NCBI RefSeq assembly: GCF_024137865.1
Contig: NZ_CP099960.1
Span: 930,001-994,000, forward strand
Direction: 5' to 3'
From: Moraxella sp. FZFQ2102
GTDB taxonomy: Bacteria > Pseudomonadota > Gammaproteobacteria > Pseudomonadales > Moraxellaceae
Length of the DNA stretch: 64,000 nucleotides
In this document: in pieces, positions 22,574-30,331 of the stretch
How the letters are laid out: each line of letters starts with the position of its first letter
Numbering within the stretch: position 1 is the first letter of the stretch
Program-made: the position numbers and the translations under genes
Notes under the pieces: model-generated
The model's database searches: none
What the model saw: the letters and a program-made list of their open reading frames with translations, nothing else
What the model was told of the DNA's origin: nothing

Positions 22574-25500
22574 ATGTCTATCAGATGGGAAAATATTAAA
22601 CCTTTAAAAGGTTCTCAAAATAATGCTTTTGAAGAACTGGTATGTCAATTGGCACGCCAAGAGTTTAGATCAAAAGGCAAATTTACCAGAATTTCTGCCC
22701 CTGATGGCGGTATTGAAGCAATGTGTGAATTTTCAGATGGCTCATTATATGGATGGCAAGCCAAATACTTTTTGAGTTCATTTTCATCGTCACAATGGAG
22801 ACAAATTGAAGATTCTTTCAAGGAATCTTTAAAAAATTATCCAAACCTTACAAAATATTATGTTTGCGTCGCAACTGATAGAGCAAATGCCAACATATCT
22901 GGAAACAAATCTTTTCTTACAAAATGGGAGGAGTATGTCCAAAAATGGAAAGAATTCGCTCAATCACAAGGTCGTGAAATAGAATTTGAATTTTGGGGAA
23001 GTTTTGAATTATCTGATTTATTATCAAAACCAAAAAATGCAGGTAAAAAATTCTTTTGGTTTAATGAAAATGAATTATCAGATAAATGGTTTGAACAATA
23101 CAATCAATTAGCTATTAGCAATCTTGGTGTTCGTTATACACCAGAAATCAATGTTGATTTACCCATTACAATGCAATTAGAAAGCTTGGCAAGAACAAAA
23201 ATTTTTAAAGAAAATTTTGGAAACCAATTTAGCCAATTATTAATAGATGTTAAATCACAATATCAATCTCTGTATCGTTATGAAGAGTTAGATCAGTATT
23301 TTGAGCCTGTATACAAACTTTTAATTAAAGAACTTAATTTATCAATAATTGATGATTTAGAAATAATCATTAATATTGATTTATTAATTCAAAAAATCAA
23401 TGAGTTGATAATACATCTTGAAGATTTCTCTAAAAATTATTTAAATAAAGAAGAAAAAAACAATAATGACTATTACTATTTCAGAAAATTAATCAGCTGA
23501 TTAGAAGATATTATTCAGTTGTTAAATTCATCTGAATTGTCATTATTCAATGGCAAAGTGCTTGTTTTAACTGGTCAAGCTGGTAATGGTAAATCTCATT
23601 TATTAGGAGATTTTGTCCAAAAGAGTCAATCTTCGGGAAAATATGCTTTGCTATTATTGGGTCAAGATTTTACTGAAAAATCTAATGTTTGGAGCCAAAT
23701 TTTCAAGCAGTTAAATCTAAATAATACAACACCTGATGTTTTTTTGTCAGCTTTGAATAGCATAGGAGAAATGCAGAAAGAACGGGTTATTTTAGCCATA
23801 GATGCCTTAAATGAAGGTGAGGGAAAATCTTTGTGGAATAACCAACTCAATGGATTAATTGAATTAGTAAGTCAATATTCAAACATTGGGCTAGTGATTA
23901 GTGTACGAGACAGTTACCAAGAAATTATTTTGAATCAATTAACCACAAAAAATAAAGAAAAATTATGTTATGTCCATCATACAGGATTTATGGATAATGA
24001 ATTTGAAGCTATTCAAATATTTTTTCCCTACTACGGCTTACAACTACCTAGTGTGCCATTGCTCAATCCAGAATTTTCTAATCCATTGTATTTAAAATTA
24101 TTTTGTGAGTCTTTAAGATTTCAAGGGGAGACTTGTGTTCCGAGAGGTCATAAGGGATTGAATAACATTATAAAATTTTACTTAGATGGGGTTGAGAAAC
24201 ATATTTGCAAACAAATTGAACAAGATATTGGTTTAAACTTAGTTCAAAGAGCAATCAATGTGATTGCAAAATTACAATTAGAGGAAAATAAATTTAGCTT
24301 GGATTATATTACAGCCAAGAGGGGGTGCGAAATGAATTAATAGAAGACATTGCAGAATCAGATGCTAAAAGATTTCTTGATTACTTAATTAAAGAAAATG
24401 TTATTAGTAAAAATGCTTACTATAACAGAGATGAAGAGTATATTTATTTCAATTATGAAAGGATTGGGGAATATCAAAAAGCGAATTTAATATTAAAACA
24501 TATTCACAACCAAGATGATTTTGTTCAATGGTTAAATAGCGAACAAGGAAAAAACCTATGTAACAGCGTTGGTTTTAATAGAGGTGTATGGGAAGCATTG
24601 AGTGTATTATTACCAGAACGATTTGATTTTGAAGTGTTTGAAGTGCTTGATTGCTCAAAAGATTGGGTTTGGTTTGAAATTATTGTGGAAAATCTCTTTT
24701 GGAGGCAGCCTGAAACAATCAATCTGCAGAAACTACGACAGTTTTTCAAAACTAATCAATATTTCAATCAAGCAACTTGGACTGATGTTTTGTATCAACT
24801 GGCTACCGAAATTAATCACCCGTTAAATATAAAATATTTGCACAATACACTGCATTCTTTTTCTTTAGCAGATAGAGATGCCGTTTGGACTGCTTTTATT
24901 GCATTAAATTCTGATGAATGCCCAGCAATAGATAGATTATTGACTTGGTGTTATAAATCAAGTGGTCAAGAAAATATTGAACCAGAAGTATTATTGCTGG
25001 GTGCAATCGCTGTAAGTTGGTTATTTACTTCTACTGATAAACAAAGTAGAAATAAACATATCAATGCATTGGCTCATTTATTATGGAATAGATTGGACAT
25101 TGCATTAGAATTATTTAAAGAATTTCATACAGTTAATGACCCATATGTGATGGAAGGTATTTTATCTGCCATTCATGGTGCTGTTGTCTATTCAGAAAAT
25201 ATATCTTATTTAAAAGAACTTGCATTAGAAATAGACAATCAAATATTTAATAAACCTGAAAAAGAAGAAATCTATCCCAATGTTTTGGTTCGTGATTATT
25301 CTCGCCATATTATTGAATATTCTTTACAAAAAGATAATTATTCATCAAATAATATTGATTTAATCAGAGAAAGAATCACACCACCATATAAAAGTTCTTT
25401 TCCTAATATTCTACCAACAAATGAAGAAATTGATGAAAAGTATCATTCTGATGGACAAAGAATAATTATTCGTTCAATGACAACGGAGTATGGTCGTGGG

Positions 25501-26736
25501 ACAGGCGGATATGGTGATTTTGGCAGATACACTTTTGAAGCTAAGTTTCGTCAATGGGAAAGTTATAAATTAGGCAATATTATTGATGTTAATTTATTAA
25601 GCAATTATGCCTGCCAAATGATTTTTGAGCAATTTGGTTATGATGATGAAAAGCATCTGAAATTTGATAGGGAAAGCTATTCAAGATATTGGCGAAGAGA
25701 TGATACCAGTAAAATTGAGCGAATTGGTAAAAAGTACCAATGGTTGGCTTTATACGAAATTTTGGCAAGAGTGATGGATAATTTTCCTGCTTTTGTTGAT
25801 AGCTATAATGATAAATCAGAACGTGATTATATGAGAAATTTAGATGATTTTTATTTACCAAAAACTCAAATTAAAATTTCACCGCCAACTAGAACCGATG
25901 TATTCTCTCAATACAAAAATCAAAAACCATGCCAAACCAAACATTATTTTACCATCCAAGATAATGAATTAATTGATGAATGGGTACAAACCAATGATTT
26001 TCCTGATATTAGCAATTTGCTGGAATTGACGATTAATGGTGAAAAATGGCTTGTTTTAGAAAGACACGATGATTTTCGCGAAATGGCAAAATTCGGGCAA
26101 AAAGAAACTTATGATATTCAAAAATGGCTGCAAATACGCAGTTATTTAGTTAAAGAAACTCAATACTTAAAAGCCAAAACTTGGTTGCAACAACAAAATT
26201 TTATGGGAAGATGGATGCCAGAAAGTAATGAATATTATAATATTGATGTTAATCAATTTTTTGCTAAAAATACATTCAATGAATGGCAAGAAATTTCTAG
26301 GTATCAAGATATTGAACCACCTTCATTTAAAGTTATACCTAGTGTAAATTCCTATATTTGGGAATCTACTTATGGTAATGATGGTATTTCATTTTATGCC
26401 CCTAACCCTATTATTTATCACGGAATGAAAATGCAAAATTGTATTAAAAATGGCTATTGGGTTAATTCACAAAATAATTTAATCTGTTTTAATCCGCAGA
26501 TAAATGATGAATTTCAAAATAGTTTATTGGTTAAAAAGGATGAATTCTTAAATTTCGTAAAAGAGCATAAATTAAAATTAATTTGGACTGTTTTAGGTGA
26601 GAAACATGCTTATACACAAAGCAAATTTTTACAAGAGCTTTCGGGAGTTTATTATCTGCATGGGAAAAATCAGCAAGCAAATGGTAATGTTTCAAATAGC
26701 ATTCAAGAGATTCAACATTGGGGAAATGAACAATGA
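22574..26736 (+). pseudogene. Nuclease-STAND NTPase of the Avs (AVAST-like) anti-phage type, broken by a stop and a frameshift
   Basis: One gene of about 1387 codons, read as three pieces. Piece 1 (22574-23500) has an N-terminal PD-(D/E)XK, Mrr-like nuclease: Glu20, Asp44 in APDGGIEA and Gln62-x-Lys64 in YGWQAKYF. An in-frame TGA at 23498 stops it, but the frame continues to 24340 with Walker A GQAGNGKS (composite residues 334-341), Walker B ILAIDALNEG (406-415) and a sensor-like ISVRDSYQ. At GGGGG (24321-24325) the frame shifts; one extra G would join TAKRG to VRNELIED and the third piece, which runs to 26736 as a long helical sensor-like region. This order (nuclease, STAND NTPase, long C-terminal sensor) is that of Avs phage sensors; which type I cannot tell. 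The gene is markedly AT-rich and contains an uptake word at 24703. Confidence 0.75.
24703..24714 (+). repeat. Kingella-type DNA uptake sequence inside the STAND gene
   Basis: Exact AGGCAGCCTGAA within the coding sequence (read as RQPETI). Its presence inside the gene suggests the defence gene had resided in an uptake-sequence-bearing genome before it reached this one. Confidence 0.85.
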
Positions 26737-27605
26737 ACCTAAACGCCCTATCCCTATTTGTTTCTGTCGTCCAAGACGGCAGTCTCTCCAAAGCATCGGA
26801 ACGGCTGAATGTACCGATTGCCACCATTAGCCGTCAAATTACAGAATTGGAAAAATCGCTCAATATTCAACTATTTGACCGCAAAAAATCAGGCGTTAAG
26901 CCGACAATGACAGGGCAAAAGCTTTATGAACAAGTGTATCAAAACATCGATAATTTATTGCAAGTAGAAAAAGCATTCTCTGAACATCAAGAAATTAGCG
27001 GAACATTACGCATTTCCACCTTTACAGGATTGGAAGAAGTTTGGGTGTGGCTCGATGAATTTGGCACGAAATATCCCAAAGTGAGCATTCATTGCCAAGT
27101 AACCGACCGAGTTTTGGATTTGGTGGAAGATAATATTGATTTTGCGTTTCGGGCAGGGGATTTGCATACCGATAATGCGGTGGCGCGTTTGGTGCTGACG
27201 GCAAAAGTCAAATGCGTGGCACATCCGCATTTATTGGCACAATACGGCACCCCGACAACGCCTGATGGTTTAGTGCGTTTTCCTTGTGTGGGTTTTGCCA
27301 AAGCCGAACAAAAAGAGTTGATGATTACATTAGAAAATAAGATGCTGAAATTACCTTATGTGTTTGCGTCAAACGATGTGTATGCCATCGCTTATTTAAT
27401 TCAACAAGGGCGTGGTGTGGGGCATTTACCTGAAACGATTGCCAATCGTTTGATTGAAGAATATGGCTTGGTGGAAGTGTTGCACGATTACCCGATGCGG
27501 ACTTATCCTGTGCATTTGTTGTATTTGAAACATCGTTATCCGTCTTCGGTGATGCGTGCGTTTTTGGATTTTGTGATGGAGAAAGTGGGGTTTTTGGCAG
27601 TTTAA
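26733..27605 (+). CDS. LysR-family transcriptional regulator
   Basis: A 290-residue LysR regulator: MNLNALSLFVSVVQDGSLSK and PIATISRQITELEKSL form the DNA-binding part, and the effector domain ends VMRAFLDFVMEKV. Its ATG overlaps the stop of the STAND gene (ATGA), which would couple translation if the upstream gene were intact. There is no divergent partner here, unlike the other LysR genes, so its target is unclear. It is the last gene of the accessory block; a GacA-type box begins 20 bases after its stop. Confidence 0.9.
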   Translation: MNLNALSLFVSVVQDGSLSKASERLNVPIATISRQITELEKSLNIQLFDRKKSGVKPTMTGQKLYEQVYQNIDNLLQVEKAFSEHQEISGTLRISTFTGLEEVWVWLDEFGTKYPKVSIHCQVTDRVLDLVEDNIDFAFRAGDLHTDNAVARLVLTAKVKCVAHPHLLAQYGTPTTPDGLVRFPCVGFAKAEQKELMITLENKMLKLPYVFASNDVYAIAYLIQQGRGVGHLPETIANRLIEEYGLVEVLHDYPMRTYPVHLLYLKHRYPSSVMRAFLDFVMEKVGFLAV

Positions 27606-27624
27606 AGTGGTTTGATGGATGCTT

Positions 27625-27642
27625 TGTAAGAAATTTCGTACA
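27625..27642 (+). promoter_or_regulatory. GacA/LetA/UvrY-type upstream activating box
   Basis: TGTAAG-AAATTT-CGTACA differs by one base from the Pseudomonas consensus TGTAAG-N6-CTTACA. It also matches the Legionella LetA consensus TNAGAAATTTCTNA at all but one position. Its centre lies about 65 bases upstream of the predicted start of the small RNA, the usual place for these boxes in front of rsmY/rsmZ genes. Confidence 0.75.
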
Positions 27643-27665
27643 CAGATTGCCGATTTTTGCCACTG

Positions 27666-27692
27666 TTTACGACACTGTCATTTTGGCATAAT
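27666..27692 (+). promoter_or_regulatory. Promoter of the CsrB/RsmZ-like RNA
   Basis: The -10 element CATAAT is at 27687-27692, with a weak -35 TTTACG at 27666-27671 (spacer 15). A weak -35 is expected for a promoter that needs an activator. The predicted start is about 27699. Confidence 0.5.
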
Positions 27693-27809
27693 ACGCATAA
27701 CAGCAATGGAAACCGATACAGGATGTATCAAGCAAGGATGATCAGCTGTTCGTATGGAAACACCGTAAGGATGCACGCAGGATATGCACCAAAAAGCCAC
27801 AAGTTAACG

Positions 27810-28198
27810 TGAACCGCACCCCAAAAGTTAGGCAACCTTTGGGGTGTTTTTATGACCAAATACACAATGGACTTTAAACTTGAAGTCATTGATCATTATC
27901 ACAATGGACTTAGTTGCAATCAGATTGTACCGGTACACTGATGCGGCAATTGCTTGGATAATGCAGTGATAGAGAGTTTCTTTGGGGCGTTAAAAGAAGA
28001 AATCTTCTTTAATGGCAAAAAAGTAGAAGATTTACATCAACCGATGAACTTGGATAAGTGATTGATGAGTGTATTCACTACTACAATCATGATAGAATAA
28101 AAGTAAAATTAAAAGGACTGAGTCCTGTACAATACAGAACTCAGTCCTTTATTAAACCTTAACCGTTAATCTTAGTGTCTAAGAATTGGGTTGGTTCA
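27810..28198. mobile_element. Internally deleted IS3-family (IS150-like) element
   Basis: A 389-base remnant with terminal repeats TGAACC...AAAGTTAGGCA at the left and, inverted, TGAACCAACCCAATTC at the right (ending 28198). The left part starts an orfA (MTKYTMDFKLEVIDHYHNGL from 27852). After a deletion near 27930 it jumps to the end of the orfB transposase: CLDNAVIESFFGALKEE, then KLKGLSPVQYRTQSF, with stops. It cannot move by itself but keeps both ends. No clear 3-base target duplication is visible (ACG against CCG). Confidence 0.8.
27817..27851 (+). terminator. Terminator in the left end of the IS3 remnant
   Basis: CACCCCAAA (27817-27825) pairs with TTTGGGGTG (27838-27846) and is followed by TTTTT. 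IS elements often carry such a hairpin to block read-through. Here it may now end the CsrB/RsmZ-like RNA. Confidence 0.75.
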
Positions 28199-28237
28199 CC
28201 GACGATAAAGCGGTTTTTTGATTGATCAATAAATCAA

Positions 28238-30331
28238 TTATTGCTCAATGCCTTTCATGGTCAGCTTGATGCGGCCACGGTTATCGATGTCTTGGACTTG
28301 GACTTTGACCACTTGACCTTCTTTTAGGTAGTCACTGACATTCTCGACGCGCTCATCTGAGATTTGGCTGATGTGTACCAGACCATCAGTACCTGGTAGG
28401 ATGGTCACGAACGCACCAAAATCAACGATACGCGCCACTGTACCTTCATAGACAGTGCCCACTTCCACTTCAGCGGTGATCGCTTCGATTTGTGTCATTG
28501 CTGCACGCGTCGATGCTTTATCCATACCAAAGATGCGGATTGTGCCGTTGTCTTCGATGTCGATGGTTGCGCCAGTGTCTTCGGTCAGCTGACGGATGGT
28601 CGCGCCGCCTTTACCGATGACATCGCGGATTTTTTCTGGGTTAATGTTCATGGTTGCGTAGTTTGGCGCATAGGCATTGATCTCGGTGCGGCTTGTTGAG
28701 ATAACTTCATTCATCGCAGCCAAGATGTGGATACGGCCAGCATGAGCTTGTTTCAGCGCTTGCTCCATGATGTCGGCGGTGATACCTTCGATCTTGATGT
28801 CCATCTGTAGCGCGGTGATGCCTTCGGTCGTACCTGCTACTTTAAAGTCCATATCACCCAAGTGGTCTTCGTCACCTAGGATGTCAGATAGTACGGCAAA
28901 ACGCTCGCCTTCTTTGACCAGACCCATCGCAATACCTGCCACAGGTGCTTTTAGCGGTACGCCTGCATCCATCAATGATAGTGATGCACCGCACACAGAT
29001 GCCATAGATGATGAACCGTTTGATTCGGTGATTTCTGATACCACACGGATGGTGTAAGGGAAGCGATCAGCGGCTGGTAGCATGGCTTGGACACCACGGC
29101 GAGCTAGGCGACCATGACCAATCTCACGGCGTTTTGGCGCACCTTCACGACCTGTCTCACCCACTGAGAAATGCGGGAAGTTGTAATGTAGCATGAAGTG
29201 GTCTTGCTTAGTGCCTGCCAAAGTATCCACCAAGTTTACATCACGGCTAGTACCTAGTGTGGTCACGACCAAAGCCTGTGTCTCACCACGGGTAAACAGT
29301 GCTGAGCCGTGCGTATAAGGCAATACACCCACTTGGATATCCAATGCACGCACAGTCTCAAGGTCACGGCCGTCGATACGTGGTTTGCCTGATAGAATAT
29401 TGTCACGCACGGTGCGGTATTTTAGCTCTTCGAACAATGCTTTGATGTCATCAACACGCTCAGCATAACCCTCGCTCTCAGCATCGTCTGCCAATGCTTC
29501 GATGGCTTCGTTTTTGATTTCATCTAGGCGAGCATAGCGATCTTGCTTGACGGTGATGGTATAAGCTTCGCTCACTTTGTCAGTAAAGCCTGCCTTAAGT
29601 GCGTTGTTTAGCTCTTCGTTAATTGCAGGGGCGACAAATTCTTGCTTGGCATTGCCAACAGCTGCAGCAAAGGCATTGATGTTATCAATCACGATTTGTT
29701 GCTGTGCATGGCCATACAGTACCGCGCCCAGCATCTGATCTTCTGACAGCTCGCGCGCTTCTGACTCTACCATCAAGACCGCTGACTTAGTACCAGCAAC
29801 GACCAAATCCAAGTCGCTTTGTTTCATCTGTGCCAGATTTGGGTTTAGGACATATTCACCATTGATAAAGCCGACACGAGCGGCACCGATTGGGCCATTA
29901 AATGGTGCAGGTGAAATCGCCAATGCCGCTGACGCACCAATCATCGCCGCGATGTCAGCATCTTGGCTCTTATCTGATGAGATGGTGGTGGCGGTGATTT
30001 GGATTTCGTTGTAGTAGCCTTCTGGGAATAGTGGGCGGATTGGACGGTCAATCAAACGAGATGTCAGCGTCTCAAACTCGCTGGCACGGCCTTCACGCTT
30101 GCCATAGCCACCTGGGATTTTGCCCGATGCGTACATTTTTTCTTGATAATTGACGGTCAGTGGGAAGAAATTTTGACCAGCAACAGCTTCTGGACGCACA
30201 ACCACAGCAACCAGCACAGACACACCACCCATGTGCACAAGCACTGAGTTTGCTTGGCGTGCGATACGGCCAGTTTCTAGGACAACTTGTTGGTTGCCAT
30301 ATTGAAATTCTTGACGAATGGTATTAAACAT
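28238..30331 (-). CDS. pnp: Polynucleotide phosphorylase
   Basis: 3'-5' exoribonuclease and polymerase of the RNA degradosome. The 697 residues follow the family layout: two RNase PH-like cores (first with [17 protein letters not shown], second with [13 protein letters not shown] and [26 protein letters not shown]), a KH domain with [15 protein letters not shown] near residue 555, and a C-terminal S1 domain ([28 protein letters not shown]). It follows rpsO with a terminator-like hairpin between them, as in E. coli, where that leader is the site of pnp autocontrol by RNase III. Confidence 0.98.

Follow-up and report, generated by a model that had tools for sequence, protein, structure and literature searches.

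Does the intergenic DNA beside pnp in Moraxella sp. FZFQ2102 encode a small RNA (sRNA) that sequesters CsrA, and is it the only such RNA of the organism? The initial annotation of the window (the whole 64,000-nucleotide stretch of DNA that was analysed) relied on an 18-base box, a -10 element, six GGA motifs in 75 nucleotides and the hairpin GATAC-AGGAT-GTATC, all of which are present when the sequence is read directly. The locus and its neighbours are laid out as follows.

26733..27605, plus strand: LysR-family regulator, the upstream neighbour (PF00126 and PF03466).
27625..27642, plus strand: GacA/UvrY-type box TGTAAGAAATTTCGTACA, read directly.
27646..27660, plus strand: second conserved stretch of the promoter, ATTGCCGATTTTTGC, found at columns 22-36 of the 34-sequence alignment A3.
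27687..27692, plus strand: -10-like element CATAAT, read directly, 44 bases 3' of the box.
27699..27851, plus strand: predicted sRNA of about 150 nt, with start and end inferred from the spacing to the -10 element and from the profile and R1 matches.
27699-27704 with 27745-27750, plus strand: outer closing stem AACAGC/GCTGTT (helix 1), from folding.
27708..27782, plus strand: six GGA motifs, the predicted CsrA sites, four of the six being ANGGA.
27715..27729, plus strand: inner hairpin GATAC-AGGAT-GTATC (helix 2), perfect, with GGA in the loop, read directly.
27791..27804, plus strand: 5' arm of the native terminator, AAAAAGCCACAAGT; the 3' arm is missing in the window, and both arms are found in copy L086 of genome G020 and in the FZFQ2102 paralogue L004.
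27810..28198, strand not given: insertion-sequence (IS) remnant of 389 bp with ends TGAACC...GGTTCA, presumably IS3-like from the look of those ends; full and partial copies lie elsewhere in the genome.
27817..27851, plus strand: terminator-like hairpin CACCCC...GGGGTG followed by TTTTT, formed by the IS end, from folding and a terminator search.
28238..30331, minus strand: open reading frame that we take from the look of its sequence to be pnp (polynucleotide phosphorylase), a neighbour outside the sRNA system that is matched over its full length in 21 of the 22 genus genomes.

The GGA motifs start at 27708, 27721, 27736, 27756, 27769 and 27780. The box TGTAAGAAATTTCGTACA is one base off TGTAAG-N6-CTTACA, the E. 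coli UvrY sequence (PMC4682653), in line with the one-base distance from consensus claimed earlier. The stretch ATTGCCGATTTTTGC begins 3 bases past the box and has a consensus of approximately ATTG-CG---TTTGC in the copies of A3. The covariance model R1, which describes the 5' core of the sRNA and was trained on 34 sequences, matches the window at 27697-27757 with 45.7 bits, this copy having belonged to the training set.

A first concern is whether this arrangement exceeds chance. Within the window, counting both strands, six GGAs in 75 nt are unique to the sRNA locus. An nhmmer profile of 30 sequences from other genomes (A3 minus the four rows of the FZFQ2102 genome) matches 27625-27756 with an E-value of 9.2e-20; its second-best match in the window, at E 0.47, is this box again in the reverse direction. 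When the profile is restricted to the transcript, the sRNA locus is still the best place in the window, at a weak E of 7.6e-4, followed by a match elsewhere at E 0.0081; much of the profile strength thus sits in the box and promoter, since the transcript part alone scores weakly. Genome-wide, TGTAAG-N6-CNTACA yields six matches at four places, compared with a single match for the reversed control pattern, and all four places sit at copies of the sRNA with the same arrangement downstream. The alternative that box and GGA cluster form a chance pattern in intergenic scrap left by an IS insertion would accommodate the ordinary folding energy of the window core taken alone (z -0.72; 45 of 200 shuffles as good) and the absence of the window sRNA promoter from the list of a generic sigma-70 scan, but it would have to explain an independent match at E 9e-20 from a profile built without the genome in question, and homologues in 21 genomes in which the box is coupled to the transcript. 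Chance is hence barely conceivable as an explanation, and it was rejected on the profile match at the window copy.

The sRNA is not single. R1 detects five copies in the FZFQ2102 genome, at C1:957697, 1191684, 1091076, 751907 and 723008, the fifth (723008) sharing 92% identity over 216 nt with the copy at 751907. The wording 'the Csr/Rsm RNA of this organism' consequently does not hold, as the window locus is one of five copies and the one with the broken native terminator; the other four had been overlooked, as had the IS remnant, which fills 27810-28198 of the interval first annotated. Across the genus, the family is present in 21 of 22 genomes, consistent with the conservation of box and GGA hairpins in relatives that had been anticipated. 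There are 60 R1 matches, 1-5 per genome, of which 34 form the training set and 26 lie outside it. The remaining genome, G007, has no R1 match and likewise none for pnp, csrA or the GacA family, and is therefore probably unreadable. Exact box sites number 41 in the 22 genomes, and 34 carry an R1 transcript; the other seven are L018, L029, L035, L036, L041, L043 and the first site of L017. Of 41 rows considered for alignment, L030 (+), L037 (-) and L040 (+) were dropped as the wrong strand of a site and L018, L029, L036 and L041 as divergent, leaving the 34 of alignments A2 and A3.

Several observations accompany these counts. At L029, L036 and L041, R1 misses a divergent sequence that is box-controlled, carries 3-4 GGA and has an end resembling a terminator; it is possibly a further type of the sRNA family. 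Near-tandem copies, approximately 0.7-3 kb apart, occur in several relatives (L012, L014, L088, L089). At L077, positions 310-468 on the plus strand give a sub-threshold match to Aggregatibacter sRNA 41 (RF02901; 35.4 bits, gathering 97, E 4.3e-5), which, on the opposite strand, overlaps the distal end of the fifth sRNA copy.

Beyond the assembled genus set, a box-plus-promoter pattern in named genomes identifies 25 stretches: 21 in Moraxella (including M. catarrhalis, L156, and M. bovoculi, M. lacunata, M. caprae, M. cuniculi and M. oblonga), two in Psychrobacter, one in Vibrio and one in a Ruminococcaceae bin. The last two, each with one GGA downstream, look like chance. In 277 genomes of the bacterial family outside the genus, R1 run with stricter filters gives one marginal match (G184, E 5.6e-4), which was left out of the copy counts. 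The two named Psychrobacter records and G105, a genome of another genus, share a box, then GGA-bearing sequence and an apparent terminator at the end. A pattern demanding TATAAT matches 1 of 119 (G105, outside the genus), a figure that says nothing on Moraxella since the pattern misfits the CATAATA of the Moraxella copies.

The anatomy of the family was counted in 57 of the 60 copies, leaving out G012:C1:886058, G006:C1:49878 and G016:C39:20494. Summed over the 57, GGA occurs 315 times against 22 for TCC, with 4-7 GGA per copy, and a simple terminator search is positive in 49. Allowing up to two mismatches, 55 of the 57 have a box; as 34 of the 57 were found by the box, the clean figure is 21 of 23: of the 23 copies found by transcript, without an exact box, 21 have one with no more than two mismatches, 71-73 nt ahead of the model start. 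All 57 copies examined have ATAATA or GATACTAT at the -10 place.

The conserved core folds into two nested helices. In 36 sequences, 96.7% of the cells of helix 1, the outer stem, are paired; in helix 2, the inner hairpin, 80.4% are paired, and double changes are seen at 3 of 3 pairs. Both stems together reach 90.6% of cells paired, compared with 77.9% in shuffled alignments and 18-47% when the structure is slid. The covariation score is 0.320 against 0.121 for shuffles, none of 500 being as high, on an alignment that had been adjusted to the structure; of the five shuffle measures, two are weak, being reached by 51 and 27 of 500 shuffles. Unguided alifold on a MAFFT alignment, which shifts the inner hairpin, recovers the outer stem only. 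A hairpin with GGA in its loop is found in 47 of 57 copies, the window copy included, and 10 show none. The mean GGA-loop score is 4.66, compared with 2.93 in shuffles with the GGA fixed, and none of 300 shuffles is as high, which is no strict probability because the copies are related. The stem sequence of the inner hairpin varies between copies while the GGA is kept in the loop; the paralogue L004 has GGG in place of GGA there. As judged from these alignments, the predicted nested architecture, a closing stem around one GGA-loop hairpin, is conserved and covarying.

A GacA-activated sRNA might act through base pairing with mRNAs in the manner of Hfq-dependent RNAs, and not by holding CsrA; RgsA, described in PMC2375449 as a GacA-controlled sRNA with a single GGA and no RsmA titration, provides the precedent. 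The Moraxella copies carry 4-7 GGAs with a strong strand bias (315 GGA, 22 TCC), however, and hold GGA in a hairpin loop whose stem sequence is free to vary, both of which fit protein binding and make a base-pairing mode improbable.

Titration of CsrA presupposes the protein partners, and candidates for each are encoded in the genome. CsrA scores above two curated cut-offs and, by alignment count, shares 50 of 59 residues, among them L4 and R44, with the solved chain 1y00_A, presumably a CsrA chain of E. coli origin. A GacA-like response regulator has NF007018 (UvrY/SirA/GacA) as its best family (252 bits, curated cut-off 280), and a hybrid kinase of approximately 1020 residues with an Hpt domain has NF008318 (BarA) as its best family (524 bits, curated cut-off 890). 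The BarA/UvrY-type regulators expected at the outset are accordingly present as best matches; their orthology is likely, not proven, because these matches fall below the curated cut-offs. The two genes are encoded far apart. Among the 22 genus genomes, CsrA is found in 19 and a strong GacA-like match in 20, the misses being G007, which also lacks a pnp match, and the drafts G014 and G018 (CsrA) and G019 (GacA), which are 63-88% complete. Residues L4 and R44 have a role in CsrA (PMC7652899).

Taken with the family data, the window locus is very probably one of five paralogous Csr/Rsm-type sRNA genes, predicted to be Gac-controlled and CsrA-sequestering. Conservation in the genus, covariation and the csrA, gacA-like and gacS-like genes lend good support to the class assignment of the initial annotation; the annotation's claim of a sole Csr RNA is the part that fell. 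The genome sequence itself shows the genes, the box and its spacing, the GGA enrichment, the nested structure, how many copies there are, and that csrA, gacA-like and gacS-like genes are encoded. Transcription, control by GacA and binding of CsrA are predicted on that basis, with steps that follow the E. coli and Pseudomonas literature (PMC2375449, PMC7911923, PMC4682653 and PMC7652899). A BarA/GacS-like kinase would phosphorylate the GacA/UvrY-like regulator, which would bind the 18-bp box, whose centre lies approximately 66 bp before the inferred start, and turn on transcription. The resulting transcript, about 150 nt for the window copy and about 125-140 nt for the four other FZFQ2102 copies, would offer 4-7 GGA motifs, one of which usually occupies the loop of a small hairpin that a closing stem encloses, and would sequester CsrA, releasing CsrA-controlled mRNAs. 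The window copy would end properly at the IS hairpin.

The relationship to known Csr/Rsm RNAs is one of kind and not of sequence. None of the Rfam models CsrB, CsrC, RsmX, RsmY and RsmZ, three of which had been proposed as a check, matches at gathering threshold in the window or in 14 loci. A permissive search of six loci returns, as the sole Csr/Rsm match, RsmY on the G020 copy with 17.4 bits (gathering 57; E 1.4). Membership in the Rfam Csr/Rsm sequence families was rejected on these covariance-model scores. Like the Moraxella sRNA, RsmX, RsmY and RsmZ of Pseudomonas have an upstream GacA box, several GGA/ANGGA motifs partly in loops and several genes. The Rsm RNAs of P. brassicacearum contain 6-10 GGA/ANGGA motifs each, RsmX-2 is 110 nt long, and rsmX duplicates exist, with up to five rsmX copies in P. 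syringae (PMC7911923). The Moraxella sRNA differs in belonging to another genus, in having no Rfam match at threshold and in that its function is predicted; the nested architecture and the second promoter stretch are listed as further differences ahead of a detailed comparison with Pseudomonas. CsrB and CsrC of E. coli likewise combine the UvrY-type 18-bp palindrome TGTAAG-N6-CTTACA with GGA motifs, being activated through the palindrome bound by UvrY (PMC4682653) and holding CsrA by the GGA motifs (PMC7652899). CsrB, however, has 22 GGA motifs (PMC7652899) compared with 4-7 per Moraxella copy, and the centre of its box lies about 182 bp before the start (PMC4682653) compared with about 66 bp; E. 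coli has two such RNAs, whereas Moraxella has up to five short copies. Within the same bacterial family but in another genus, RsmA-regulating sRNAs of Acinetobacter ADP1 have been predicted computationally (Table 2 of PMC5568370, which cites an earlier sequence-based prediction as its reference 12), a likeness drawn from the descriptions. Among open-licence papers, mostly listings, these predictions are the only Csr-type sRNAs found named for the family, and no description of such an sRNA family was found for the genus Moraxella. Judged against Rfam 15, the putative family is new as a sequence family but of a well-known kind with the expected circuit.

The position beside pnp looks incidental. 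When the pnp loci of 20 relatives were searched together with flanks of about 1.5 kb, a copy turned up at the G014 locus alone, so that the box and GGA hairpins, thought earlier to be worth seeking next to pnp in other Moraxella, adjoin it in 2 of 21 genomes; a meaning of the neighbourhood was rejected for this reason. In G020 (L123), about 4.6 kb separate the LysR gene from the sRNA, the two sharing a contig and coming in reversed order, whereas they are adjacent beside pnp in the window (26733-27807); the block has therefore been rearranged or transferred. Further upstream, at 22574-26736, an Avs2-type anti-phage gene is spread over three consecutive frames corresponding to 1-307, 316-582 and 585-1379 of the Avs2 profile, and is apparently broken.

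What distinguishes the window copy is its 3' end. The IS starts inside the loop of the native terminator of the sRNA, leaving the 3' arm missing, and its other end lies in the apparent loop of the pnp terminator, which is intact in G020. The two terminator halves flanking the IS fail to pair, and there is no sign of a target duplication; the junction therefore probably arose by recombination between IS copies. The hairpin formed by the IS end at 27817-27851 has a folding energy of -17.3 kcal/mol (z -3.19) and is followed by a T-run; it was found by one terminator search, another terminator scan being blind to it because of a loop limit of 8. From this predicted fold, it is a plausible replacement terminator. 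With its native terminator cut by an IS whose end forms a terminator-like hairpin, the window copy may either be live or be in decay. By pnp (98%), the nearest relative is G020; it has three sRNA copies, and the one most like the window copy (L086; 88.6% identity over 184 nt, terminator intact) occupies the position of L004 and not a place beside pnp. This placement, together with the cut terminator, would suit a displaced duplicate without a terminator of its own that is decaying and out of the RNA pool; yet the box, the -10 element, six GGAs and both stems are kept, and a strong hairpin and a T-run are provided by the end of the IS. Decay is a real possibility, though a somewhat doubtful one, and it concerns the window copy alone, being compatible with the Csr/Rsm-type reading of the family.

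The finding provides Moraxella, M. catarrhalis included (L156), with a testable Gac-Csr circuit that has defined RNA antagonists, and with R1 and the fixed spacing between box and start, other Moraxella genomes are easy to annotate. The spread of 1-5 copies raises the question of why Csr RNAs multiply; copy number, the nested design and the terminator interrupted by an IS are the points that merit a specialist's time. A broader scenario is tentative and, taken as a whole, rather unlikely: Moraxella would have amplified its own Csr-type RNA family (1-5 genes, in near-tandem or displaced duplicates) with a nested architecture absent from Rfam, and an IS of terminator loops could land in such a gene and supply a working stop, so that IS traffic would alter sRNA dosage without loss of the decoy.

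The insertion sites of the element show a recurring pattern elsewhere in the data. At L171 and L172, reading inward from either flank reveals an A-run and stem bases that match; a diverged relative of the IS, at L179, has no such pattern. An A-run ends approximately 9-17 nt before the IS at all seven distinct close left ends that were read, and by its flanking sequences the element seems to insert into the loops of intrinsic terminators.
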